Below, piece by piece: positions 1 through 41,391 of a DNA stretch of 49,870 nt. This DNA is from Flavobacterium aurantiibacter (GTDB taxonomy: Bacteria > Bacteroidota > Bacteroidia > Flavobacteriales > Flavobacteriaceae): NCBI RefSeq assembly GCF_002251775.1, contig NZ_NOXX01000196.1, forward strand, positions 1 through 49,870, in the 5' to 3' direction. Under the pieces are notes generated by a model. The model was given only the letters and a program-made list of their open reading frames with translations, had not been told where the DNA came from and did not search any database. Made by a program: the position numbers and the translations under genes. The stretch's first letter is position 1. Each line of letters starts with the position of its first letter.

Positions 1-800
1 TTCGGTGTTTTCTGTGCGCAGTGTTTGCTCACAGAACACGCAGATGCACATAGACGTGCAAGTAAAATTCTGTGTGTCTCGGTGCTTTCTGTGCGCAGTG
101 TTTGCTCACAGAACACGCAGATTTACACAGACAGGCAAGTAAAATTTCGTGAGTTTCGGTGTTTTCTGTGCGCAGTGTTTGCTCACAGAACACACAGATT
201 CACACAGACATGCAAGAAAAATATCGTGCGTTTCGGTGCTTTTTGTGCGCAGTGTTTGCTCACAGAATACACAAATTCACACAGACATGCAAGAAAAATT
301 CAGTGCGTTTCGGTGTTTTCTGTGCGCAGTGTTTGCTCACAGAACACGCAGATTTACACAGACAGGCAAGTAAAATTTCGTGAGTTTCGGTGTTTTCTGT
401 GCGCAGTGTTTGCTCACAGAACACGCAGATTTACACAGACATGCAAGTAAAATTCGGTGCGTTTCGGTGTTTTCTGTGCGCAGTGTTTGCTCACAGAACA
501 CACAGATTCACACAGACATGCAAGAAAAATATCGTGCGTTTCGGTGCTTTTTGTGCGCAGTGTTTGCTCACAGAATACACAAATTCACACAGACATGCAA
601 GAAAAATTCAGTGCGTTTCGGTGTTTTCTGTGCGCAGTGTTTGCTCACAGAACACGCAGATTTACACAGACAGGCAAGTAAAATTTCGTGAGTTTCGGTG
701 TTTTCTGTGCGCAGTGTTTGCTCACAGAGTTCGCAGATTCACACAGACATGCAGGGAAAACTCCGTGGGTTTAATTATTTTCTGTGCGCAAGCGCTAAAC
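1..800. repeat. 77-bp tandem repeat array, about 10.4 units
   Basis: Units start at 1, 78, 155, 232, 309, 386, 463, 540, 617 and 694, with a truncated unit from 771; the array may extend left of the window. Each unit contains the core CTGTGCGCAGTGTTTGCTC followed by a variable part of the type cgcagattyacacagaca. Units 3-4-5 (155-385) are identical to units 7-8-9 (463-693), so a 308-bp block of four units was duplicated. Each unit has a potential hairpin TTCTGTG/CACAGAA with a 13-nt loop. Because 77 is not a multiple of three and the unit lacks plus-strand stops, all three plus frames stay open; I do not take these as genes. There are no unique spacers, so it is not a CRISPR array. Confidence 0.95.
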
Positions 801-1175
801 GATGATTCTTATAAGTGATTCTTTATCGACTAGATAGCCCGCGTTAAAATTCACCAGCAAACCAACTTTACATCCAGAAAGTCGCAGATACGTCATCAAC
901 TGCTTTTTATGGACGTTTTGTAAATTTTCTACCGATTTTATTTCAACAATCACCTTGTTTTCAACGAGTAAATCAATCACATAGGCTTCGCCTAATAACT
1001 CTCCCTTGTACATTAATGATTTTGTGTACTGCCGGCTAACCGACAATCCCAAATCCTTTAACTCACGCGCCAAAGCGGCTTCATAAACGCGTTCAAACAA
1101 TCCCGGTCCGAGTTCTCTATGAACTTCAAAAATAGCAGACCGAACTATATACGTAATTTGATTAATTTCTTCCAT
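795..1175 (-). CDS. GxxExxY family protein (PD-(D/E)XK-like)
   Basis: This 126-residue protein has the family signature GPGLFERVYE at residues 23-32 and a nuclease-like core with Asp68, then EIK (Glu78, Lys80), followed by HKKQLMTYL. The layout fits the PDDEXK_3 / GxxExxY family, whose biochemical role is unknown; a DNA-acting function is inferred only from the fold. Length is normal for the family. It starts 10 bp after the end of dprA on the same strand, so it may be co-transcribed with it. Its stop codon lies a few bases from the last truncated copy of the 77-bp repeat array, so readthrough would transcribe the array. A non-catalytic role is possible. Confidence 0.9.
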   Translation of the reverse strand: MEEINQITYIVRSAIFEVHRELGPGLFERVYEAALARELKDLGLSVSRQYTKSLMYKGELLGEAYVIDLLVENKVIVEIKSVENLQNVHKKQLMTYLRLSGCKVGLLVNFNAGYLVDKESLIRIIV

Positions 1176-1185
1176 GATGTAAATT

Positions 1186-2286
1186 TTAAATGGCTTCGAA
1201 AAATTTTCCTGGCAGCGGCAGCACCAATCCTTTGAGTTCTAGTTCTAAAAGCAATACCGCAGTTTTATGCACAGGTAAATCGCAGTGAATAGCTAAATCG
1301 TCGAGCTGCAACTTTCCTGTTTTGTAGAGTGTATCGTACAGCGTTTGTTCGTCGGGTTTTAGCTCAACAAACAGTTGTTTTTGAACAGCCGGTGCGTTCT
1401 TTTTTTGTTCCCAATTGAGCAAATACACCAAATCGGCAACCGATGTAAGTAAAGCTGCTTTCTGACATTTAATTAAGTGATTACAACCTGCGCTGAATTT
1501 ATCGTTTAAACGACCCGGAACTGCAAAAACATCGCGACTGTAATCAAAAGCGAAGTTTGCCGTTATCAACGAACCGCCGCGATCGGCCGATTCAATTACA
1601 ATGGTAGCGTCGGCCAAACCTGCAACAATCCGATTTCGACGAACAAAGTGCTCTTTGTCGGGCGCCACATCGCTGAAAAATTCGGTTACTAAACCTCCGT
1701 TTTCTGAGATTGGTCGAATAAATTTCTTGTGAACTTTTGGATAAATATCGGCAAGCCCGTGCGCTAAAACGCCAACGGTTTGTAAACTGTTTTGTACAGC
1801 AAACTGATGTGCTGCAATATCAACTCCATAAGCAAATCCGCTAACAATCAATGGGTTGTATGGAACAAGCTCTTGGATAAATTCTTTTAAAAATCCGCTC
1901 CCATAATTGGTCATGCGTCGGGTACCCACGATACTGATAACTTTTTGTTCGTTTAAATTCATTTTCCCTGAAGTAAACAGCAAAACTGGTGCATCCGAAC
2001 ATTGCCGAAGTCGATTCGGAAATGCTTCGTCGGAAATAAACAGTGGAGTTACGGCGGTTTCTTGCATGTAAACAAGCTCTTTTTCGGCTTGTTTTAAAAG
2101 CGATTTGTTTTTGAGGGCTGAGATTCGGAAGTTGCCGATGCCGTGAATTTGGGCAAGATCTTTCGCTTTCGCGGAAAAAATATCGGACGGATTTTCGAAG
2201 TGCGAAAGCAACTTTCTGGCGATGACATTACCAATGCCTTCGGCCTTTAGCAAAGCTAAAACGTAGAGTAATTCTGAATGGCGCAT
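1186..2286 (-). CDS. dprA: DNA-processing protein DprA
   Basis: DprA/Smf loads RecA on incoming single-stranded DNA during natural transformation. An N-terminal helix-hairpin-helix-like part (GIGNVIARKLL, HGIGNFRISALK) is followed by the Rossmann-type DNA-binding domain with SIVGTRRMTNYG, SGFAYGVDIAAHQFA and the RRNRIVAGLAD segment. A C-terminal winged-helix DprA domain follows. I chose the ATG at 2286 (protein begins MRHSELLYV), because the 11 codons upstream begin at a TTG and add no conserved sequence. The 366-residue length is normal. It is divergent from the HU-CCDC81/SPOR gene and is followed closely by the GxxExxY gene. Confidence 0.95.
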   Translation of the reverse strand: MRHSELLYVLALLKAEGIGNVIARKLLSHFENPSDIFSAKAKDLAQIHGIGNFRISALKNKSLLKQAEKELVYMQETAVTPLFISDEAFPNRLRQCSDAPVLLFTSGKMNLNEQKVISIVGTRRMTNYGSGFLKEFIQELVPYNPLIVSGFAYGVDIAAHQFAVQNSLQTVGVLAHGLADIYPKVHKKFIRPISENGGLVTEFFSDVAPDKEHFVRRNRIVAGLADATIVIESADRGGSLITANFAFDYSRDVFAVPGRLNDKFSAGCNHLIKCQKAALLTSVADLVYLLNWEQKKNAPAVQKQLFVELKPDEQTLYDTLYKTGKLQLDDLAIHCDLPVHKTAVLLLELELKGLVLPLPGKFFEAI

Positions 2287-2373
2287 AGTAAAATATTGAA
2301 GCACAAGATACAAAAACAAAAACAGTTGTTAATAAGATTTTGAAACAAAATAGCACATCAATTCTCGAATGCG

Positions 2374-2381
2374 TATTTTTG
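2374..2381 (+). promoter_or_regulatory. Candidate -7 box TATTTTTG
   Basis: The octamer fits the Bacteroidota -7 consensus TAnnTTTG. It ends only five bases before the ATG at 2387, which would give a leaderless or nearly leaderless message. I see no good -33 TTG at the usual 17-20 bp distance, so this rests on the -7 box alone. Confidence 0.3.
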
Positions 2382-2386
2382 TTTTT

Positions 2387-3322
2387 ATGAAGATTGAACG
2401 ATTTATTTCTGAGTTGTTGTACCGCTACCAGTGCGTAACCGTACCTGGTTTTGGTGGTTTTATTGCCGAAATCCAGTCGGCAGTGATCGATCCTGAAAAA
2501 GGCTTGTGCATTCCGCCCAAAAAGACAATTTCGTTTAATGTTAACTTGCGTCATAACGACGGATTACTAGCAAGTCATATCGCTAAAGCAGAAAAAATTA
2601 GCTTCGATACGGCACTGAATTTAATTCGCGCTGAAGTAGCTTTCGTGGAAGATCAATTAGCTGCGAAACAACGCGTTGAACTTCGAAATATTGGCACTTT
2701 AGAACAAACAAATTTCGGAGCGATTCGTTTCGAACCGGCAAACGACGTAAATTACTACACCGCCGCATTCGGACTTTCAAACATTCGAATTCCGCAGCGA
2801 TATGTTGAAGAGATTCAAAACGCTTCGACAATTGTCCTCGAATCTCAACCGAAAGTAATCGAATTAGAACGGCAAAGTCGCTCACACTTCAACGCTTGGA
2901 AATACGCCTCGGCTGCCGTGCTACTTTTAGGAGTAAGCGGTTTCTTTGGCAACCAAGCTTACGACACTTACGTGGAAGAAAAAACCGCGGAAGTTCGCGC
3001 CTCCGTTCAACAAAAAGTAACGCAAGAAATCCAAAAAGCAACCTTTGTAATTGCGAGTCCGTCGGAAACATTATCGCTTCCCGTGTCGACTCCCGATTTT
3101 AAATATCACGTAGTTGCAGGTGCTTTTCGCGACCAGAAAAATGCAAATGCCGTTTTAAGCGACCTGAAATCAAGAGGTTTTGAAGCACGTTTGCTTCCAA
3201 AAAATCGCTTCGGATTAACACCTGTTTTATTTGGAAGTTACACCAAATACGGCGAAGCAAAAGCTGCATTAACGCACATTCACCAAACGCAAACGCAAGA
3301 TGCGTGGTTATTGGTAGAATAA
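2387..3322 (+). CDS. HU-CCDC81 and SPOR domain membrane protein
   Basis: The N-terminus (FISELLYRYQCVTVPGFGGF) is the HU-like CCDC81 domain pair typical of Bacteroidota. A single transmembrane segment follows at about residues 168-190, then a linker and a C-terminal SPOR domain (YHVVAGAFRDQKNANAVL to the end). SPOR domains bind denuded peptidoglycan at division septa. The protein therefore probably links a cytoplasmic DNA- or protein-binding module to the septal wall; that role is inferred. I start at the ATG at 2387 (MKIERF) because family members begin there, not at the ATG six codons upstream, which lies inside a promoter-like box. It is divergent from dprA. Confidence 0.88.
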   Translation: MKIERFISELLYRYQCVTVPGFGGFIAEIQSAVIDPEKGLCIPPKKTISFNVNLRHNDGLLASHIAKAEKISFDTALNLIRAEVAFVEDQLAAKQRVELRNIGTLEQTNFGAIRFEPANDVNYYTAAFGLSNIRIPQRYVEEIQNASTIVLESQPKVIELERQSRSHFNAWKYASAAVLLLGVSGFFGNQAYDTYVEEKTAEVRASVQQKVTQEIQKATFVIASPSETLSLPVSTPDFKYHVVAGAFRDQKNANAVLSDLKSRGFEARLLPKNRFGLTPVLFGSYTKYGEAKAALTHIHQTQTQDAWLLVE

Positions 3323-30042: not shown

Positions 30043-31455
30043 TTAGTTTACTAATTTCACCTCAACACGACGGTTGTTAGCTTTTCCTTTAGCTGTTTTG
30101 TTAGAATCGATTGGCTTGCTTTCTCCAAAACCAGCAGAAGTTAATCGGCTAGCGGCAACACCATTTTCGATCAAGTAATTTTTAACAGCTGCAGCGCGCT
30201 CCTCAGATAATTTCTGGTTAGCAGCATCTTTACCATCGCTGTCGGTGTGACCTTCGATAGAGAATTTTGCAGTTGGATATTGTTTCAAGATTGCAGTGAT
30301 TGACTGAAGTACTGCGAAAGTTTCTTGCTTGAATGAAGACTTACCGCTATTGAACAAGATTGTTTTAGCGTAAGCGTTTAAGCGGTCTACAGCTTCAGAA
30401 GTGATTGCTACTTCTGGGCAACCGTTGTTAGAAGCTACACCTTTCACGTTTGGACACTTATCGTCTTTGTCAAGAACTCCGTCTCCGTCTGTATCAGGGT
30501 AAGGACAACCTTGGTTATCTCTTGGACCTTTGGTAGTTGGACACTTATCGTCTTTATCGGCAATTCCATCGCCATCTGCATCTGGACAACCTTTCAATGA
30601 CTTAATACCTGCAACATCAACACATGCATCTTCGCTGTCTTGAATTCCGTCGCCATCAGTATCTGGACAACCAGCGAATGCAGCTAAACCAGCTACGTCA
30701 ACACATGAATCGTCTTTGTCAAGAACGCCGTCTCCGTCTGTATCCGGACAACCATTAAGGTTTTTAGGACCTGCTACATCTGGACAAGCATCGTATTTGT
30801 CGTAAATACCGTCGTTGTCAGTATCAACTCCACCAAATCTAAAAGTCAAACCAACTAAATGTTGGAAATGCGTTGGAATACCTGTTGCACGGTCGGCGTT
30901 TGCGCGGTTGTCTGCAAATGAATATTTGTAAACTGCTTGCCAAGAAAGACCTACAGTTTCTGCAAACCAGTAAGTTAAACCTGCACCACCGTTCAAGGTA
31001 GCTGCGTCGAAATCACCAACCCACTGGTAACCACCACCAATGCTCAATGTAGGCTCAATAACCTTAGATTTGATTAATGGCATGAAGCTATAACGGATGT
31101 GTCCGTCAAGTGCATAATATTCTAAATCTCCAGGATTTACCGCCACATAATCCATAGGATTTACATCAGACTGATAAACCAATTTAGTGATTCTGTTTAT
31201 AGAACCCGTTGCACCAACAGAGAAACCATCCGCCAAATAGCGGTTTAGGCTAACGTAAGAAACAGAGGGAAAGATATTCCAGTTGTCTTTTACTTTGAAG
31301 GGTTGATCAAAAACACCACTTCCATTAGCGCTAGTTCTCGTGTCAACAGCATTGACACCAAACGACAATGCCCAAGGGTTGTCACCATCTTGCGCCTGAG
31401 CGCTGAGGCCTAGTACTAACAACGAAGCAGCAAAAAACTTGTTAAGATTTTTCAT
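30043..31455 (-). CDS. OmpA-family outer membrane protein with thrombospondin type-3 repeats
   Basis: Signal peptide 1-21 (SAQAQ), then an eight-stranded-barrel-like N-terminal part to about 215. Then come about five calcium-binding TSP3 repeats of the type [14 protein letters not shown], from about 219. The C-terminal OmpA domain ([52 protein letters not shown]) binds peptidoglycan. It is a structural outer-membrane anchor. The 470-residue architecture is typical in Flavobacteriales. A terminator follows, and a TACTTTTG box lies upstream. Confidence 0.95.
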
Positions 31456-39072: not shown

Positions 39073-40942
39073 ATCTTCCCATGTGCACAAGCAAAACCGA
39101 AATATCGCTGGGCGATACGCCGCTAATTCTCGATGCTTGGCTTAAAGTGATTGGTTTGATAGCCGTTAATTTCTGCCGTGCTTCAATCGACATAGATTTG
39201 AGTTGCATATAATCAAAGCTTTCGGGGATCTTAATATCTTCCAGACGCTGAAGCTTGTCGGCTTGATTGCGCTCCTTTTCTATATACCCCGAATACTTCA
39301 CAATAATTTCGGCTTGTTCTAGTATCTCATCATCCAAATCTTTGTCTGCTAAAAACGCCTGTACTTTCTCGAGTTCGCGCATAGCAGCTAAGTCTATTTG
39401 TGGACGAGAGAAAACTTTAAACATTTTATCGCTTTGAACAATCTCTGCGGATTCGCGTGCAACCAATATCGGATTAACCTCTGCTGGCGTAACACTCGTT
39501 TCTTTGAAAAAAGTCACTACATCTTGGGCTTTCGCATACTTCTCTTCCATTCTGCGTAAGCGCGATTCACTAGCTAAACCGATATCAAATGCTTTTCGCG
39601 TTAAGCGTTCATCGGCATTGTCCTGACGTAGTAAAGTTCGATACTCTGCACGCGAGGTAAACATACGATACGGCTCTTCTGTTCCTTTGGTAATCAAATC
39701 GTCGATAAGTACGCCAATATAGGCTTCGTCACGTTTCAAAATCAACGGCTCTTGCTCGCGTAACTTTAAAACAGCATTAATCCCTGCCATGAGTCCTTGT
39801 GCCGCCGCTTCTTCATATCCCGTAGTTCCGTTAATTTGTCCCGCGAAATACAAATGATCAACCAACTTTGTTTCGAGCGTATGCTTAAGCTGCGTTGGCG
39901 GAAAATAGTCGTATTCTATGGCATAACCCGGTCGGAGAAATTTCACCTTCTCGAAACCAACAACCGAACTTAGCGCCTTGAATTGCACGTCTTCAGGTAA
40001 CGAAGTCGAGAATCCGTTTACGTACATTTCCCGTGTTTTCCATCCTTCAGGTTCAATAAACAATTGATGGCGCTCTTTGTCTGCGAAACGATTTATCTTA
40101 TCTTCAATCGATGGACAATAACGCGGGCCGATACTTTTTATACGTCCGTTAAACATGGGCGAACGATCGAAACCGCTGCGCAACAAATCGTGAACCAGCG
40201 GCGAAGTATATGCCATGTAGCAACTCTTTTGCTCCTGTAAAGGCTGCGATAAATTGCTGTAACTAAACTTTTGCGGATACGCATCTCCCGGTTCTTCTTG
40301 CAGCTTACTGAAGTCGATTGAACGTGCATCCACTCGCGGCGGCGTCCCTGTTTTCATGCGCCCGCTTTCAAAACCACGGTCTTTTAAAATCTCCGTAATT
40401 CCAAAAGCAGCCGACTCACCCGCTCTACCTCCGCCAAATTGTTTCTCGCCAATGTGTATCAATCCGTTTAAAAACGTCCCATTGGTTAGCACAACAGCAC
40501 GGCCTTTGATTTCGATTCCCAAGCTTGTTTTCACACCAGCAATAGCGTTGCCATCAAACAACAAACCTGAAATCATTTCTTGATAGAAATCTAGATTGGG
40601 CGTGTTTTCCAGCATGTCCCGCCACTCTTCCGCGAAACGCATCCGGTCGCTCTGCACTCTCGGCGACCACATAGCGGGTCCTTTCGACTTATTGAGCATC
40701 TTAAATTGAATAGCCGTTCGATCTGAAACGATTCCAGAATATCCGCCCATCGCATCAATCTCGCGAACAATTTGTCCTTTCGCAATACCGCCCATCGCTG
40801 GATTGCACGACATCTGCGCAATAGTTTGCAGATTCATCGTCACCAACAAAGTCTTCGCTCCCATATTTGCAGCAGCGGCAGCGGCCTCACAACCTGCGTG
40901 CCCAGCGCCAACCACAATCACATCGTATAAATCTTTAAACAT
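39071..40942 (-). CDS. mnmG: tRNA uridine-5-carboxymethylaminomethyl modification enzyme MnmG
   Basis: With MnmE it adds carboxymethylaminomethyl to wobble U34 of tRNAs. The FAD motif DVIVVGAGHAGCEAAAAAA begins at residue 8 or so, followed by MSCNPAMGGIAKG and the block GGGRAGESAAFGI. The C-terminal segment is GYIEKERNQADKL onward. The 623-residue length is normal. The gene is preceded, 8 bp upstream, by a perfect parS palindrome; gidA/mnmG is commonly near the chromosome origin. Confidence 0.98.
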   Translation of the reverse strand: MFKDLYDVIVVGAGHAGCEAAAAAANMGAKTLLVTMNLQTIAQMSCNPAMGGIAKGQIVREIDAMGGYSGIVSDRTAIQFKMLNKSKGPAMWSPRVQSDRMRFAEEWRDMLENTPNLDFYQEMISGLLFDGNAIAGVKTSLGIEIKGRAVVLTNGTFLNGLIHIGEKQFGGGRAGESAAFGITEILKDRGFESGRMKTGTPPRVDARSIDFSKLQEEPGDAYPQKFSYSNLSQPLQEQKSCYMAYTSPLVHDLLRSGFDRSPMFNGRIKSIGPRYCPSIEDKINRFADKERHQLFIEPEGWKTREMYVNGFSTSLPEDVQFKALSSVVGFEKVKFLRPGYAIEYDYFPPTQLKHTLETKLVDHLYFAGQINGTTGYEEAAAQGLMAGINAVLKLREQEPLILKRDEAYIGVLIDDLITKGTEEPYRMFTSRAEYRTLLRQDNADERLTRKAFDIGLASESRLRRMEEKYAKAQDVVTFFKETSVTPAEVNPILVARESAEIVQSDKMFKVFSRPQIDLAAMRELEKVQAFLADKDLDDEILEQAEIIVKYSGYIEKERNQADKLQRLEDIKIPESFDYMQLKSMSIEARQKLTAIKPITLSQASRISGVSPSDISVLLVHMGR

Positions 40943-40949
40943 AATTTAG

Positions 40950-40965
40950 TGTTCCACGTGGAACA
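40950..40965. promoter_or_regulatory. parS site, copy 1
   Basis: TGTTCCACGTGGAACA is a perfect 16-bp palindrome of the ParB-binding type. It lies eight bases upstream of the mnmG start, 26 bp from the next copy. Confidence 0.85.
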
Positions 40966-40971
40966 ATTAAG

Positions 40972-41391
40972 TTAGTGTTCCACGTGGAACATTTTTAATG
41001 CTTCGTCTTCCAGTGCTCTCATCTGAGCTTCATCCTCTTCCGTCTTATCTTTGAATCCACATAAGTGCAATACGCCGTGGATAATTACTCGACGTAGTTC
41101 TTCGATAAATTCTACTCCGAAATCTACTGCGTTTTCTGCTACGCGCTCGGTCGATATAAACACGTCTCCGCCGATCTCATTACCTACCGTGTAGTCAAAA
41201 GTGATAATATCTGTTAGCGTATCGTGGTTCAAAAAACGCTGATTCATATCTAACAAATACTCGTCGGTGCAAAACACATAACTGATTTCACTAATCGACT
41301 TCCCGTGCTTATGCGCTACACGTAGAATCCAATCGGTAACTAATTTCTCGTCTGTTAACTCAAAGTCTGTTTCACTGTGAAACTCAATCAT
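40972..41391 (-). CDS. ybeY: Endoribonuclease YbeY (16S rRNA maturation)
   Basis: Single-strand endoribonuclease for 16S rRNA 3' maturation and quality control. The metal motif HGVLHLCGFKDKTEED has His105 and His109; the third position of the usual HxxxHxxGxDH is Asp115, as often in Bacteroidota. The 139 residues are normal. The last six, MFHVEH, are encoded by a parS site (40976-40991), so protein and DNA site share sequence. It overlaps the DUF4175 gene by 8 bp and precedes mnmG by 29 bp. Confidence 0.95.
   Translation of the reverse strand: MIEFHSETDFELTDEKLVTDWILRVAHKHGKSISEISYVFCTDEYLLDMNQRFLNHDTLTDIITFDYTVGNEIGGDVFISTERVAENAVDFGVEFIEELRRVIIHGVLHLCGFKDKTEEDEAQMRALEDEALKMFHVEH
40976..40991. 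promoter_or_regulatory. parS site, copy 2, inside ybeY
   Basis: Identical to the copy at 40950-40965. It encodes ATG-TTC-CAC-GTG-GAA-CA of the YbeY C-terminus on the minus strand. Confidence 0.85.

Follow-up and report, generated by a model that had tools for sequence, protein, structure and literature searches.

The repeat array and its neighbouring gene

At one end of the 49,870-nucleotide stretch of Flavobacterium aurantiibacter DNA analysed in this work (the window), a tandem repeat array stands directly beside a gene of the GxxExxY family, and the question raised by this locus is whether repeats and gene are casual neighbours or parts of one system. We know of no function assigned to GxxExxY. 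In the openly licensed literature (subscription literature lay outside the search) we found no paper linking GxxExxY with repeats, the six repeat strings searched for were found nowhere and, in the passages available, GxxExxY is merely named where it is mentioned. The features concerned are the following:

1..790, unstranded: tandem array with 10.3 copies of a 77-bp unit, running past the contig edge (TRF)
771..790, unstranded: last array copy, truncated, 4 bp from the GxxExxY stop codon
795..1175, minus strand: GxxExxY gene, 126 aa, PD-(D/E)XK nuclease fold (profiles, alignment, model)
1186..2319, minus strand: dprA, upstream host neighbour of GxxExxY (PF02481, 7.2e-71)
30562-30754: another tandem repeat, 81 bp x 2.4 (TRF)
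40942-40991: another tandem repeat, 26 bp x 1.9 (TRF)

The original prediction had attached the array to the GxxExxY gene and placed it downstream in the direction of transcription, and both statements proved correct, the open reading frame running on the minus strand from an ATG at 1175 to a stop codon at 795-797. The array (period 77, 89% matches, score 1202) has its copies spaced exactly 77 bp apart and contains a higher-order duplication of 308 bp (four units, 95% identity at +308). As the window is an entire contig (G000:C162) and the break falls inside the array, the 10.3 copies are its visible part. Read in gene orientation, the unit is an imperfect hairpin in which an AT-rich spacer separates forward words (CACAGAAAACACCGAAA) from reverse words (TCTGTGTGAATCTGTGTGTTCTGTG); DNA folding of three units gave z values of -2.85, -2.82 and +0.26, the third being no better than shuffles. 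The string GCAGATTNACACAGA has five exact matches in the genome, all inside this array, where the two added by allowing one mismatch are also found, while at two mismatches there are three more in the array and 14 elsewhere, with 11 genome-wide for the reversed control pattern. Rfam returned nothing at gathering scores for window positions 1-2400. A CRISPR-like array was considered and rejected: the 77-bp near-copies are contiguous, without spacers, and the neighbours of GxxExxY are dprA and trpS (PF00579, 2.9e-53), not cas genes.

The gene begins 10 bp past the dprA stop; the array is on one side only and the 5' arm is absent. On the far side of the array is trpS, convergent with dprA, as seen in two Flavobacterium MAG relatives (L054 and L055) whose GxxExxY proteins are 98 and 92% identical to that of the window. 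The same array has about six units in L054 and three in L055, where the similarity extends over 456 and 231 bp, respectively. Judged by eye, units look more alike within one array than between arrays, so that copy number and sequence seem quick to turn over. An unrelated MITE-like insertion of ~215 bp with inverted ends (ATACCTGAGTTCGATT...) is found between dprA and GxxExxY in L055 (9127-9343), and is absent from the window and from L054. Among congeners, we surveyed 30 trpS loci from 61 genomes; 23 of them also hold dprA and none of these 23 has GxxExxY between the two genes, gaps of 3-21 bp being common. The repeat motif of the window was found at none of the 30 loci, versus nine matches in the window array, and at least five of the gaps (L167, L171, L177, L179, and L184) carry, by eye, palindromes of other words.

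The GxxExxY protein

The window protein matches the family profiles with wide margins (PF13366, 2.7e-40, 137.8 bits for a cut-off of 22; TIGR04256, 7.4e-41, 139.2 for 35), and PF13366 is its only domain at E 0.001, with neither a Y1/HUH (PF01797) nor a DDE transposase. Its structural model (pLDDT 95) has a small PD-(D/E)XK nuclease fold. Across 62 aligned sequences, the invariant columns include those of G23, G25, E28, Y31, E78, K80, and Y96, and 90% or more of the sequences have D68 and Q92. The window protein has the whole conserved set (E28, D68, E78-x-K80, Q92, and Y96) and its active site is intact. The family was found in 149 of 296 sampled Bacteroidota genomes, with up to 12 copies per genome (G114), in 26 of 145 sampled Cyanobacteria, and also in Chloroflexi and archaeal genomes.

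The best structural match by VIA-align was SSO0001 (Z 10.3, rmsd 3.4, 98 residues, identity 19%), which we take to be a Cas4, followed by 3ijm (Z 8.2) and AF1548 (Z 8.0), with archaeal Hjc lower (Z 7.4). A shared fold of this kind, seen in a model, demonstrates no function for GxxExxY. Likeness to Cas4/RecB-like nucleases consists of this nearest fold, the conserved Q and Y after ExK, and weak PADLOC matches, mostly to Cas4 (best E 0.0032, 0.0015, and 0.0061 for the three proteins searched, with nothing stronger), whereas GxxExxY is a single small domain of ~125 aa and has no cas neighbours at the window. Hjc is likewise a small PD-(D/E)XK protein (1gef_E, rmsd 3.0, 84 residues), and an Hjc-like activity would suit cruciform DNA; however, a Z under 8 may reflect the shared core only, and no sequence relation was found. 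No sequence relatives were found in the PDB at E 0.1, and PHROGs gave a single match (E 0.0007, function unknown), for one protein of the three.

Inverted word arms around GxxExxY genes

All three GxxExxY genes in the window's genome adjoin short-word repeats, with different words each time: the CACAGATT type at the window, the CGCAAAG type at L001 and the GGATTAAAG type at L002. A second of these genes (region L002 66-3158, contig G000:C223), with GGATTAAAG-like words on both sides, is located between type I restriction R (PF12008) and specificity (PF01420) genes. Flanks were read at 80 loci of relatives, plus family and phylum genomes, and the usual layout is one of forward words, then the gene, then the same words reverse-complemented from the stop or soon after it. 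The arms repeat a word of 7-10 bp (for example CGCAGAG, CGCAAAG, CACGGAG, CACGAAT, or CGCAGAT), in two to four copies at a spacing of 8-11 bp, and their outer ends often read, by eye, AACC(A/G)C...G(C/T)GGTT. Whole hairpins stand on both sides of the gene at L058. At L101, L267, and L275 the 5' arm reaches the ATG, its purine words coinciding in part with the Shine-Dalgarno position, and the 3' arm begins at the stop codon or soon after it. In G013:C18, a repeat unit with CGCAGATGACGCGGATTT words has taken up GxxExxY gene fragments, as two identical 132-bp 3' pieces are found there 245 bp apart (L051 and L053).

We then scored this bracketing in a word-blind manner for all full GxxExxY genes with both flanks (partial genes were left out): the 150 bp ahead of the start codon were aligned locally to the 150 bp that follow the stop codon, taken as reverse complement. 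The median score was 14 for 149 GxxExxY genes and 8 for 986 control genes from the same loci, 317 of which are short (200 aa or less). Altogether 108 of the 149 exceed the 95th percentile of the controls and 71 the 99th, 41 staying within the 95% cut; in 41 of the 149 the gene's own 3' flank scores higher than each of the other 148. A holdout gave 58/74 above the 95% cut and 38/74 above the 99% cut, although it was not blind, because the scoring (150 bp, harsher mismatch) had been readjusted once many flanks were already known by eye. Outside Bacteroidota, with unchanged settings and cut-offs from controls mostly at Bacteroidota loci, 19 of 21 genes pass the 95% cut and 16 the 99% cut. This set (Cyanobacteria, Chloroflexi, Methanophagales archaea, and a Deltaproteobacterium) comprised 26 new genes, not read beforehand, of which 23 were full and 21 had both flanks; L275 and L276 lie at a previously known site. 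At 133 of 175 GxxExxY genes versus 75 of 1172 controls (proteins over 170 aa left out), a single word class is represented at least three times within 120 bp, a result in which the contrast with controls alone counts, because the classes were picked after seeing the flanks. Exact k-mer counts on single flanks separated GxxExxY from controls weakly, with equal medians. Repeats of the predicted general type are thus frequent near GxxExxY and the linkage is strongly supported, although the words are mostly others than cgcagattnacacaga.

One way to read the arms is as mRNA untranslated regions, with purine words that would serve as Shine-Dalgarno sequences and pair with the 3' arm, closing the mRNA into a loop and limiting the gene's own translation, and with gene-less copies as relics or terminators. 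The words do abut start and stop at L101, L275, and L267, the long stems fold (-84.8 kcal/mol at L275), and the duplexes between 5' and 3' flanks go beyond controls (46 of 171 genes below the 1% cut, 80 below the 5% cut). We consider such control at the RNA level quite unlikely even so, since it leaves unexplained the hundreds of dispersed gene-less copies and the genome-level co-occurrence (see below), and some genes have no 5' arm (as in the window) or stand between two complete hairpins (L058). Moreover, among Nostocales orthologs (L112 with a miscalled start, L121 left out) pairing of a gene's own arms was not significantly better than cross pairing (p 0.08).

Co-occurrence of repeats and gene across genomes

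If repeats and gene are connected, genomes that carry the gene should be richer in repeats, as the original prediction had proposed to check in many genomes. The 296 Bacteroidota genomes examined for GxxExxY were also scanned for the pattern CGCARAGN{1,4}CRCARAG. Five or more matches were found in 78 of 149 gene-bearing genomes versus 3 of 147 gene-free ones (Fisher 1.8e-25), with totals of 2156 versus 139 matches, and 96 versus 104 for the reversed control; matches follow GxxExxY copy number (Spearman 0.63). When gene presence was shuffled within families, the observed 78 compared with a mean of 64 and a maximum of 72 in 5000 shuffles (p 2e-4), the reversed control pattern also leaning slightly to gene-bearing genomes (p 0.042). 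The unchanged pattern gave 15 or more matches in 8 of 26 gene-bearing Cyanobacteria versus 1 of 119 gene-free ones, in a sample of 145 genomes from the class of Desmonostoc (L098), reaching 421 in G513 (control 5). In these counts, genomes with GxxExxY matches below the family cut-off (G202, G233, and G315, and likewise G508 in Cyanobacteria) were taken as gene-free, the first three also in the Y1 comparison below. Near-background values were seen in 39 of the 149 gene-bearing Bacteroidota (0-1 matches) and in 17 of the 26 gene-bearing Cyanobacteria (0-4 matches). The expected co-occurrence is therefore strongly supported in two phyla, and repeat and gene are independently distributed neither at the locus nor at the genome level.

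It is barely credible that chance or some general genome property would give any small intergenic gene such flanks. Repeats of this kind are indeed common in some of the genomes concerned, but the 986 control genes, short ones included, and the reversed control pattern rule out chance as the source of the inverted flanks, and the second phylum and the non-Bacteroidota loci contradict it too.

A more serious alternative is that another enzyme, for instance a Y1/RAYT transposase, or else general recombination keeps or spreads the palindromes, with GxxExxY as cargo that sits well in their loops. Some genomes do have repeats without GxxExxY (G104 with 12 matches, G083 with 9, and also G523). With GxxExxY fixed, however, Y1_Tnp had no significant effect, either in gene-bearing (71/129 with Y1_Tnp vs 7/20 without, p 0.15) or in gene-free genomes (2/81 vs 1/66, p 1.0), whereas GxxExxY matters in both Y1 strata (71/129 vs 2/81; 7/20 vs 1/66), and a Y1/RAYT transposase was accordingly rejected as driver of the word repeats. 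Arms also flank this family, the one cargo gene followed systematically, in several phyla as well as in archaea. On balance we regard the passenger role as unlikely.

Many of the repeats lie far from any GxxExxY gene. In G263, a single contig, 13 listed of 94 matches are all more than 1 Mb from its three GxxExxY genes, and in G349 none of 13 listed of 24 matches is within 8 kb of one. Of ten stretches fetched from each, at least seven in G263 and at least five in G349 are arm-spacer-arm word palindromes; the remaining ones, and most of those fetched from Cyanobacteria, look like solo arms. Two gene-less palindromes folded with z values of -7.96 and -10.31. Very small mobile repeats have reportedly been described in cyanobacteria (Elhai, in 2008). 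In G349, a CGCAGAG palindrome is nested in the loop of a CGCAAGG palindrome (L213 486-697), and G523, with 51 word-pair matches and zero GxxExxY matches, is a candidate relic genome.

Joint inheritance of gene and arms

Gene and arms are inherited jointly across different sites. Mapped on the protein tree, the word class changes 22 times, compared with a mean of 40 and a minimum of 34 in 500 shufflings; the tree rests on few columns, and support is missing for 42 of its 101 inner branches. For this test, sites with any neighbour in common were grouped, and each of the 104 resulting clusters contributed one gene; 80 were labelled, the 24 'other' genes being left out of the change count, and proteins over 170 aa were left out as above. 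Similar proteins that lack a common neighbour form 72 pairs; among the best 14 of these, the ANME-1 loci L123 and L127 have proteins 97% identical and no common neighbour within 1.4 kb, and their DNA similarity stops 39 nt past the stop codon, just beyond the 3' arm, and, by eye, ~27 nt beyond the 5' arm. Archaeal L124, L125, and L133, compared with L122, L128, and L250, are alike over the gene and near flanks only, while for L073/L079 and L072/L081 the similarity continues for more than 80 nt past the stop.

One site in Nostocales, compared among the 30 of 118 genomes that matched best, shows full elements, gene-deleted elements, a short insert, and word-free sites. L299 has lost most of the gene and kept the outer arms, in L298 the arms are fused across the lost gene, and L296 has at the same junction a 39-nt insert with perfect inverted arms of 12 bp. 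It follows that gene-less palindromes can arise by internal gene loss, and because these forms are explicable as deletion products, mobilisation in trans is at most a candidate explanation for them. Target-site duplications were not found, sites with and without words being too diverged to define one, and we found no near-identical recent copies.

The coexistence of filled and gene-less forms could also be expected from a selfish gene resembling a homing endonuclease, in which the nuclease would cut empty palindromes and repair would copy the gene in. The frequent position of GxxExxY in a palindrome loop agrees with this, as does L036, a distant GxxExxY gene (37-39% identity across 101-109 residues) that, within the window's taxonomic family, is found at the intergenic site also used by L029, L043, and L215 and has different arms. 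Nevertheless, the gene-less Nostocales forms resemble deletion products (L298 and L299 retain gene remnants or fused arms), and homing by itself spreads no gene-less palindromes to new sites, so that we give this scenario a low probability, slightly below that of control at the RNA level.

Paralogs in one genome share words no more than genes of different genomes (p 0.14), which fits private word recognition by each copy and also passive co-inheritance. The Mantel correlation between arm similarity and protein identity is 0.15 for proteins less than 55% identical and disappears at less than 45%.

A candidate gene-plus-arms element

We consider it about an even bet (probability roughly 0.5) that GxxExxY genes and word palindromes constitute one mobile element, gene plus arms, with a nuclease acting on the palindromes of its own copy. 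The comparisons demonstrate bracketing, co-occurrence, joint inheritance at different sites, deletion derivatives and an intact active site, whereas recognition, cutting and copying are inferred. Against this reading stand chiefly that target duplications and recent identical copies were not found, that solo arms prevail among the cyanobacterial copies examined, and that paralogs of one genome do not share words. The 'repeat-targeted' or 'repeat-spreading' two-part system that had been proposed for the window is in this sense a candidate reading. The nuclease may drive the word palindromes along the following lines. A PD-(D/E)XK gene sits between or next to inverted arms of two to four word repeats, and gene and arms are inherited, and sometimes relocated, jointly. 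The nuclease would most probably bind its own copy's word arms when these form a hairpin, a cruciform, or a multi-word duplex, and would cleave them there. Repair or replication of the cut palindrome could then amplify arrays, homogenise arms and now and then relocate copies, while gene-less derivatives (arm-spacer-arm hairpins, solo arms, and tandem arrays like the 77-bp one) may persist or spread non-autonomously.

The closest parallel is the RAYT/REP/BIME/REPIN system. According to two reports, RAYT genes are flanked by inverted REPs and coevolve with them, and REP abundance correlates with the gene (PMC2817692, PMC3116915). GxxExxY resembles this system in that a nuclease gene has inverted palindromic repeats on either side (in the 108 of 149 genes above the 95th percentile), in the dispersed gene-less hairpin doublets and arrays, in repeats and gene that appear to coevolve, and in the correlation of gene presence with repeat abundance in Bacteroidota and Cyanobacteria. 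It differs in that the enzyme is a PD-(D/E)XK protein (PF13366), not HUH/Y1, that the repeats are tandem words of 7-10 bp differing from copy to copy even within a genome, and that Y1 presence does not predict them; the window copy, with its one-sided array, also departs from RAYTs in not having two inverted flanking repeats. As the defining Y1 transposase is absent, the family is not a RAYT, even though the architectural features are present. MITEs and insertion sequences with terminal inverted repeats also share inverted ends and gene-less, internally deleted derivatives with these elements, but here the arms are word arrays and the protein has no DDE transposase; no target-site duplication was seen between sites too diverged to define one.

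Since GxxExxY usually sits in or by word palindromes and its carriers tend to be littered with repeats, an unrecognised repeat-spreading element is suggested. We put forward tentatively, at somewhat less than even odds, that GxxExxY is the enzyme of a pan-prokaryotic repeat-spreading class with a private word for each copy, a second and independent RAYT/REPIN-like invention derived from the PD-(D/E)XK fold. If so, partnerships between nucleases and palindromes would have arisen at least twice, from unrelated enzymes, and a large class of anonymous intergenic repeats would become parts of a defined element. The link with word palindromes gives the GxxExxY family a concrete candidate substrate. 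There is also a practical side to word arrays: two of the three GxxExxY contigs of the window's genome end inside gene-adjacent repeats (window 1-790 and L001 2022-2159), so such arrays can break assemblies, as at the window's contig edge.
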